35,827 bases of DNA from Flammeovirgaceae bacterium. Lineage in GTDB: Bacteria; Bacteroidota; Bacteroidia; Cytophagales; Flammeovirgaceae. This document shows positions 8,785-12,483 of the stretch, piece after piece. A model generated the notes under the pieces. The model did not search any database, was not told the DNA's origin, and saw only the letters and a program-made list of their open reading frames with translations. Position numbers and translations under genes: made by a program. The stretch spans positions 1 to 35,827 of the forward strand of contig JAHQVQ010000252.1 of NCBI GenBank assembly GCA_019634305.1, written 5' to 3'. The first letter of the stretch is position 1; every line of letters begins with the position of its first letter.

Positions 8785-9915
8785 ATGAAGATATATCTAG
8801 ATAATGCTGCAACTACTAGAGTAAGTGAGGAGGTATTGGCAGAGATGCTACCGATTTTGAAGAATAGTTTTGGAAACCCATCGTCCACCCATTCTTTTGG
8901 ACGCGAAGCCAGGGTATTAATAGAAAAATCAAGGAAAAAAATAGCTGAATTATTGAATGTGACCCCTTCCGAGATTTATTTCACTTCTGGAGGAACGGAA
9001 TCTGATAATACTGCCATAAGAGGAGGTATTAAACAAAGGAGTATACAAAATGTAATTACCAGTAAATTAGAGCATCATGCAGTATTACATACTCTGGAAG
9101 AATTAGAGAGTTCCGGAGAAATAAAAATTAGTTTTGTTGAATTTGATGAAAAGGGAATTATTAGTCTTGATCATTTAGAAGAATTATTAAAAAAGAATAA
9201 AAAAGCCTTTGTTTCCTTAATGCATGGAAATAATGAGATTGGTAATATTAACCCCATAAAGGATTTTGGTGAATTATGTCACAATTATGAAGCTATTTTT
9301 CATTCTGATACAGTTCAAACCATTGGGCATGTTAAAATAGATTTACAAGACATCAATATAAATTATATAGTAGGATCAGCACATAAATTTCATGGTCCAA
9401 AGGGAGTGGGTTTTTTGTATGCCAGAAAGGATTCTAAATTGCCTTCATTTATTAGTGGAGGAGGACAGGAACGAAATTTAAGAGGAGGAACAGAAAATGT
9501 TTACGGTATTGTTGGAATGGCCAAGGCATTTGAATTCGCCATTTCGAATTTGGAAAAGGAAAAGGCATATATTAAAGGATTAAAAAATAGAATGATAGAA
9601 GGCCTGAAAGAGAATATTCCCGGAATCGCATTTAATGGAAATTCAGATAAACTAGATAATAGCCTATATACAGTGCTTAATGTGAGCATTCCTCCTTCAG
9701 ATGAAAATGGGCTATTACTTTTTAATCTGGACCTGGCCGGTATTTGTGCCTCTGGAGGTAGTGCATGTGCTAGTGGTGCTCAGACCGGTTCACACGTCAT
9801 AAATGCTTTGGGTCTCAATCCTCAAAATGGTATCATTAGGTTTTCATTTTGTAAGTATAATTCGGCAGAGGAAATTGATTTTACAATAGAGCAATTGAAG
9901 AAAATTTTAGCCTAA
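8785..9915 (+). CDS. cysteine desulfurase (NifS/IscS-like)
   Basis: YLDNAATTRVSEEV start, GNPSSTHSFGR, PLP-Lys motif SAHKFHGPKGVGFLY, catalytic Cys loop ASGGSACASGAQTGSHV. Confidence 0.92.
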   Translation: MKIYLDNAATTRVSEEVLAEMLPILKNSFGNPSSTHSFGREARVLIEKSRKKIAELLNVTPSEIYFTSGGTESDNTAIRGGIKQRSIQNVITSKLEHHAVLHTLEELESSGEIKISFVEFDEKGIISLDHLEELLKKNKKAFVSLMHGNNEIGNINPIKDFGELCHNYEAIFHSDTVQTIGHVKIDLQDININYIVGSAHKFHGPKGVGFLYARKDSKLPSFISGGGQERNLRGGTENVYGIVGMAKAFEFAISNLEKEKAYIKGLKNRMIEGLKENIPGIAFNGNSDKLDNSLYTVLNVSIPPSDENGLLLFNLDLAGICASGGSACASGAQTGSHVINALGLNPQNGIIRFSFCKYNSAEEIDFTIEQLKKILA

Positions 9916-9958
9916 AAAGAAGGACGTGAATTTTTTATTAAAAATATTTCAGGGAGGG

Positions 9959-9989
9959 TTTGCAATAATAATTTAATTGTCTACATTTG
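9959..9989 (+). promoter_or_regulatory. Bacteroidota-type sigma70 promoter upstream of rplP
   Basis: TTTG (9959-9962), 19-nt spacer, TACATTTG (9982-9989), matching the TTTG-N~19-TAnnTTTG consensus. Confidence 0.75.
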
Positions 9990-10136
9990 CACTCCATTTA
10001 AGAGAAACTATACTTGTTTCTACATAAGTAAAAGTCTCAGTGAATAGATCATTAATTTGTTGATAGGATAAAAAAGGTTGAAAAGTATAGGTATGGCTTT
10101 ATGTTGTGCTTTAACTTTTACTAAATTTATAATAAT

Positions 10137-10550
10137 ATGTTACAGCCGAAAAGAACAAAATTCAGGAAAAAGCAGAAAGGAAGGGTTCGTGGAATAGCTC
10201 AAAGGGGTCATGAAATTTCTTTTGGTAGCTTTGGGATCAAATGATTGGAGATTGGATGGTTAACATCAAGGCAGATAGAGGCAGCTAGGTTTGCATTGAC
10301 AAGAGCAATGAAAAGAGAAGGTCAGGTGTGGATTAGAATATTTCCTGATAAGCCTATAACCAAAAAGCCTGCAGAAGTTAGGATGGGTAAAGGTAAAGGA
10401 TCTCCAGAATATTGGGTAGCCCCGGTAAGACCTGGTACTATTCTTTTTGAGGCAGATGGTGTAAGTATAGAAACAGCAACTGAGGCTTTAAGGCTTGCTG
10501 CTCAAAAATTGCCTATCAAAACCAAAATGGTTGTAAGAAGAGATTATTAA
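10137..10550 (+). pseudogene. rplP: 50S ribosomal protein L16, interrupted by in-frame TGA at codon 36 (10242-10244)
   Basis: [90 protein letters not shown]… Both halves are in one frame and conserved. 'Pseudogene' is the literal call; function is unresolved. Confidence 0.85.
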
Positions 10551-10562
10551 GAAGGACTAATT

Positions 10563-10883
10563 ATGAAAAATTCTGAAATAAAAGGACTTTCAATTGAAGA
10601 GATAAAGGAGAAAATCTCTTCTTCAGAAAAGAGTTTGCAAAGTTTGAAATTTGCTAATGCAATTTCTCCTATAGAAAACCCATTGCAAATCAAGGATGTA
10701 AGGAAGTTTATTGCCAGATTAAAAACTGAACTACATAATAGAGTGGTTACAGAAGTTGCTGAAAAGGTTAAAAGTGGAGAGTTGACTAATTTTAATGCGA
10801 GAGAATTTCTTTCAAAAACAAAATTAGATTCTCCTTTGAATTTGACTAAAATCAAGAAAATACTTGCAGGTTCTAAGAATTAG
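10563..10883 (+). CDS. rpmC: 50S ribosomal protein L29 with C-terminal extension
   Basis: MKNSEIKGLSIEEIKEKI…SLKFANAISPIENPLQIKDVRKFIARLKTEL core, in operon position between rplP and rpsQ; 106 aa in total. Confidence 0.9.
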   Translation: MKNSEIKGLSIEEIKEKISSSEKSLQSLKFANAISPIENPLQIKDVRKFIARLKTELHNRVVTEVAEKVKSGELTNFNAREFLSKTKLDSPLNLTKIKKILAGSKN

Positions 10884-11225: not shown

Positions 11226-11594
11226 ATGGTACAGCAAGAGTCAAGATTAAATGTGGCTGATAATAGTGGGGCAAAGGAAGTATTATGTATCAGGGTGCTA
11301 GGAGGCACCGGAAAAAGATATGCCTCTATTGGTGATAAGATTGTGGTTTCTGTGAAATCAGCACTTTCGTCAAGTAATGTTAAGAAAGGCACTATCTCAA
11401 AGGCAGTTGTAGTAAGAACTAAGAAAGAGATTCGAAGGAAAGACGGTTCTTATATAAGATTTGAAGATAATGCTGCGGTATTACTTACTGCCAACGATGA
11501 GCCAAGAGGAACTCGTATTTTTGGGCCAGTTGCTCGTGAATTGAGGGAAAAACAGTTTATGAAAATCGTTTCATTAGCACCTGAAGTTTTATAA
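11226..11594 (+). CDS. rplN: 50S ribosomal protein L14
   Basis: [27 protein letters not shown]…[24 protein letters not shown]. Confidence 0.98.
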
Positions 11595-11596
11595 TT

Positions 11597-11932
11597 ATGA
11601 AGTCTGTTAAGATAAGAAAATTACACCTTAAAAAGGGAGATAAGGTAGAGGTAATTGCGGGAAACCATAAGGGTAAAAAGGGGCTTGTTTTAGAAGTGCT
11701 ACGCAATAACAATCGTGCAATTGTAGAGGGAGTGAATTTAGTTACTAAGCATATAAAGCCAACAGCAGAGAATCCTGAAGGAGGAGTTGAAAAAACTGAG
11801 GCTGGAATACATATTAGTAATTTGATGGTTTTGGATCCGAAGACTGGAGAAAAAACAAAAATAGGTAGGAGGAAAGATGAGGAAGGGAAATTGAAAAGAT
11901 ATTCAAAAAAATCAGATCAATTCATTGACTAA
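11597..11932 (+). CDS. rplX: 50S ribosomal protein L24
   Basis: KOW motif [49 protein letters not shown]. Confidence 0.97.
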
Positions 11933-12483
11933 TGGCTAAACCTAGATTAAAAAAGAAATATTTAGAGGATATCGTCCCTAAGTTAAAAGAAAAGTTTGAC
12001 TATAAGTCAAATATGGAGGTTCCAAAATTATTGAAAGTTTCAATTAATAAAGGAATTGGAGAGGCAACATCAGATAAGAAATTAGTTGATGTTGGAATAG
12101 AAGAGTTATCGTTGATAGCTGGCCAGAAAGCAGTAGCTACAATGGCTAAAAAGTCTGTATCAAACTTTAAACTCAGAGAGGAAATGCCAATTGGGGCAAG
12201 AGTTACCTTGAGAGGAGATAAAATGTTTGAATTTGTTGATAGACTTGTAAGTATTGCCCTACCAAGGGTAAGAGATTTTAAAGGAGTCAATGATAAAAGT
12301 TTTGATGGCAGGGGTAATTATACTCTTGGCGTAAAAGAGCAAATAATTTTTCCTGAAATATCAATTGATAAGGTTAAGAAAATTTCAGGAATGGATATAA
12401 CTTTTGTTACCACAGCTCAAACGGATGAAGAAGGCTATGCCCTTTTAAAAGAGTTAGGAATGCCGTTTAAGAATAAAAAATAA
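11932..12483 (+). CDS. rplE: 50S ribosomal protein L5
   Basis: [10 protein letters not shown]…[32 protein letters not shown]. Confidence 0.98.

Follow-up and report, generated by a model that had tools for sequence, protein, structure and literature searches.

The gene of ribosomal protein L16 (rplP) in the draft genome of a Flammeovirgaceae bacterium carries an in-frame TGA at codon 36 of the assembled sequence, and this gene is the only L16 copy of the draft. The TGA is probably a local sequence error in a fragmented draft, rplP of the living organism most likely having no TGA. The window (the whole stretch of DNA analysed) comprises 35,827 nucleotides; the features concerned are collected in Table 1.

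The interrupted rplP and codon 36 in relatives

Translation and a Pfam search bore out the first-pass annotation, in which an in-frame TGA at codon 36 of a full-length L16 had been described: Ribosomal_L16 (PF00252) spans the whole frame, the TGA (one interior TGA) is its sole interruption, and the normal stop is the TAA at 10548–10550. A chance joining of open reading frames was ruled out. The draft (5.43 Mb, 461 contigs, 84.7% complete, ca. 15% of the genome missing) was searched for a second L16 with Pfam and none was found; a literature search yielded no account of an rplP naturally interrupted by an in-frame stop.

Table 1. Positions of rplP, its two private changes and the neighbouring features in the window
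Feature	Position	Strand	Remarks
Class-V aminotransferase (cysteine desulfurase-like), upstream of rplP	8785–9915	+	also the neighbour in G001, G002 and G008
Predicted Bacteroidota-type promoter, TTTG-N19-TACATTTG	9959–9989	+	only perfect match in the window, either strand
rplP (L16), interrupted once	10137–10550	+	138 codons including the final stop; Pfam PF00252 full length, E 5e-53
In-frame TGA, codon 36 of rplP	10242–10244	+	Ser/Ala/Thr in all aligned relatives
TTG directly 3' of the TGA, candidate restart codon	10245–10247	+	weak: T at −3, A at −6; context AAATGATTGG
Codon 52, TTT (Phe), second private change in rplP	10290–10292	+	Ile in all 33 aligned relatives
Downstream ribosomal cluster, 20 genes from L29 to L17	10563–21070	+	no other interruption

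Alignment of 33 relatives at codon 36 gave sense codons throughout (Ser 20, Ala 12, Thr 1), in agreement with the earlier statement that Ser or Ala is usual here. G001, a genome of the same genus, shares 97% identity in L16 and reads GCA here; TCG, TCT, TCC, GCG or GCT stand in other family members. TCA, pointed out before as one base away from TGA, was seen in 5 of 29 L16 loci matched by DNA pattern. L16 is single copy and uninterrupted in all 57 other genomes (same genus, family or order); in a sample of 395 genomes of the phylum, among the matches listed, each genome had one L16 and none had an interior stop. L16 with TGA at codon 36 was not found elsewhere by a pattern scan of ca. 85,000 species, which may leave out records of the window's own genome: the DNA pattern demanding TGA gave 3 matches, none of them L16, at moderate sensitivity (29 of 39 L16 loci are recovered when any codon is allowed at that place). 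The TGA is unique to one assembly and absent from the relatives.

Nucleotide change in the remainder of rplP is mostly synonymous, the exception of interest being codon 52 (I52F). The altered bases of the two changes, 10243 (middle base of codon 36, presuming a Ser TCA ancestor) and 10290, lie 47 bases apart. In 17 genes of the ribosomal cluster (at least 5 relatives each; 2,507 columns), this genome deviates at otherwise invariant columns only by L16 I52F and L18 V90I, the latter a conservative change; G001 has one such residue in the same comparison. I52F could be an ordinary substitution. The description of both flanks as conserved was upheld, and that of a single-codon lesion was not, I52F being another unusual change close to it.

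Assembly quality and operon context

For the assembly check, 779 kb of G001 supplied proteins that were compared with 985 kb of this genome. In the 72 gene pairs (ca. 19,500 residues) no frameshift was found, and L16 alone had a stop inside a conserved stretch; one TAG, in L143, falls at a diverged C-terminus. A generally error-prone assembly was ruled out, the compared genes being clean except for L16; any error must therefore be local. An excess of interrupted genes specific to TGA was rejected as well: a coding-score scan of the 985 kb (threshold 0.1; not exhaustive, L16 itself being missed) gave mostly normal gene ends, and in the few genes that are probably broken, on inspection by eye, the stop is TAA or TAG. 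Misassembly at the junction of the cysteine desulfurase gene and rplP was excluded by the identical junction in G001, G002 and G008; S3 and L16 are apart in every one of the 8 family genomes, which also contradicts it.

In this genome rplP is preceded by the cysteine desulfurase-like gene and not by rpsC, which is located with the S10–S3 half on contig C28 (L033). All 8 family genomes tested, the nearly complete G002 among them, have an S10 operon divided between rpsC and rplP, the break falling at 9916–10136 in the window; in most other families of the order S3 adjoins L16. The S10–S3 half ends against a convergent gene resembling lgt. The end of C28 carries an ORF (L033, 3–812) similar to transposases, by eye of the zinc-ribbon IS1595 type, which is the likely reason for the assembly break. 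On contig C180 (L149, ca. 11500–12230) a transposase orfA-like sequence is fused to a Fic-like fragment with an in-frame TAA; judged by eye, it is apparently an insertion-made pseudogene.

The cluster downstream of rplP has the order L29, S17, L14, L24, L5, S14, S8, L6, L18, S5, L30, L15, secY, map, IF-1, S13, S11, S4, rpoA, L17 (L29, S17 and L14 verified by Pfam; other genes named from sequence and gene order). The promoter consensus, TTTG-N19-TAHHTTTG, sits 148–178 bases upstream of rplP, and in 6 of 9 family genomes it stands at the corresponding place before rplP; such motifs number 39 in 1.97 million strand-bases of this genome, and the leader of ca. 140 bases between promoter and rplP is well conserved in G001. 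Promoter type and ribosomal proteins assign the window to Bacteroidota. The promoter apparently gives the detached half-operon its own start, and because it lies ahead of rplP, this gene probably opens a long essential operon. An early stop depresses the genes downstream in an operon (polarity); if rplP is the first gene, a genuine stop at codon 36 should reduce expression of the 20 mostly essential genes that follow as well.

TGA as a stop codon, tRNAs and RNA structure

TGA functions as a stop in this organism: it ends 68 of 452 long ORFs (at least 250 codons; 985 kb of this genome), and prfB is an intact gene in which the canonical autoregulatory frameshift, TATCTTTGAC, is present. The site (AGGGGGTATCTTTGAC; L068, 2400–2460, contig C106) has an in-frame TGA that is bypassed by a +1 shift; in the classic autoregulatory site this TGA is sensed by RF2. 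The case made in the first-pass annotation against global reassignment of TGA is strengthened by the prfB frameshift and the TGA-ended genes: RF2 has not been lost and TGA has not fallen out of use as a stop. The prfB site is a real programmed in-frame TGA elsewhere in this genome; L16, in contrast, has neither the slippery CTT-TGA-C nor the upstream AGGGGG, and no change of frame is needed.

No UCA anticodon was present among the tRNAs called in this genome or among the tRNA loci examined in G001, and tRNA-Ser(UGA) is normal. Recovery of tRNAs is poor (25 matches in this draft versus 42 in G001), so that a missing suppressor is conceivable. In this incomplete draft no sequence reached the Rfam cut-off for tRNA-Sec, and the weaker matches mostly fall on ordinary tRNAs. 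Several tRNA-like sequences, weak and truncated (31–32 bits, uncalled by ARAGORN), stand in a row at L066, 540–840 (contig C390, 687–819); these are possibly decayed or mobile-element tRNAs. RNA folding around codon 36 gave nothing significant (z from −1.1 to 0.1), the rplP TGA is not followed by a noteworthy hairpin, and an Rfam search of 9800–10700 gave no match. The base after the TGA is T, which is the commonest base after genuine TGA stops here (28 of 68).

Explanations of the TGA

According to the preferred explanation, base errors (one or two) within a short and weakly supported part of the draft (ca. 10243–10290) would have turned a Ser or Ala codon 36 into TGA and the Ile codon 52 into Phe; the real rplP would accordingly code for a normal L16, translated as the first gene of the operon. 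We infer that reads would not support the two odd bases. Among the options offered earlier, sequencing or assembly error is the best supported, the lesion being unique to the draft with a second odd base close by. A local error is favoured because one cause covers the uniqueness of the TGA, the clustering of the changes and the clean surroundings; the alternatives are weaker because each needs an extra assumption (a suppressor or leakiness, a second rplP, a split L16). Stops due to base errors in draft genomes are similar in that one stop lies in a conserved single-copy essential gene of one assembly with clean neighbours; rplP differs by two odd bases close together.

A very recent conversion of the native rplP into a pseudogene, made possible by a second intact rplP (as had been suggested) in unassembled sequence, is unlikely. 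In its favour are two changes at constrained positions of one gene, as under lost constraint, and the missing portion of the genome; against it stand one L16 per genome among the matches listed (order and phylum sample), which makes an intact second copy improbable, the dominance of synonymous change in the rest of rplP, and the outcome of the Pfam search of the draft. The chances are similarly slim that a real TGA is read through, by near-cognate tRNA-Trp, a suppressor tRNA or weakened RF2, to an extent sufficient to make L16. Conserved sequence on both sides of the TGA, the leakiness of UGA as a stop, and the suppressor that could be missing from the tRNAs recovered argue for it, as do conserved in-frame stops with probable readthrough in bacteria (PMC7918605), which also have conserved coding on both flanks. 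Those stops were accepted as candidates only if present in at least two independent genomes, as a guard against sequencing error (PMC7918605), whereas the rplP TGA stands alone, in one genome, within an essential ribosomal protein, and no stop kept at the same codon was found in a second genome. The anticodons called, the normal tRNA-Ser(UGA), the autoregulatory TGA kept in prfB, the T as next base and the absence of significant RNA structure around codon 36 also speak against readthrough; in the incomplete tRNA set of this draft no support was found for the suppressor offered earlier, and none was found for selenocysteine or reassignment. Less probable still is a true UGA within the sole L16 gene, with a normal code and efficient site-specific or suppressor-dependent readthrough, possibly accommodated by I52F.

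Reinitiation at the TTG directly after the TGA, by which L16 would be made as two pieces, had also been put forward and is highly improbable. The TTG adjoins the TGA and opens a frame of 101 residues that still matches PF00252. Initiation in Bacteroidota favours A at −3 (PMC6847099), which the TTG lacks and the true rplP ATG has (A at −3 and −6); moreover, the cut would fall within the L16 domain, and no split gene occurs in any relative (57 genomes). Selenocysteine or global reassignment of TGA, for which the in-frame TGA in a conserved gene could be quoted, is largely refuted and has next to no probability: tRNA-Sec did not exceed the Rfam cut-off and its weak matches are mostly ordinary tRNAs, a downstream hairpin of note is absent, RF2 is present with many genes ended by TGA, and only 1 of the 72 compared genes has an interior TGA.

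A stop seen in a single genome in an essential gene calls for read support. If the UGA were true, survival of the cell would hinge on the decoding of a stop within a core ribosomal protein, which would be a striking case of essential recoding. A by-product of the analysis is the family-wide split of the S10 operon, the rplP half apparently having its own promoter.
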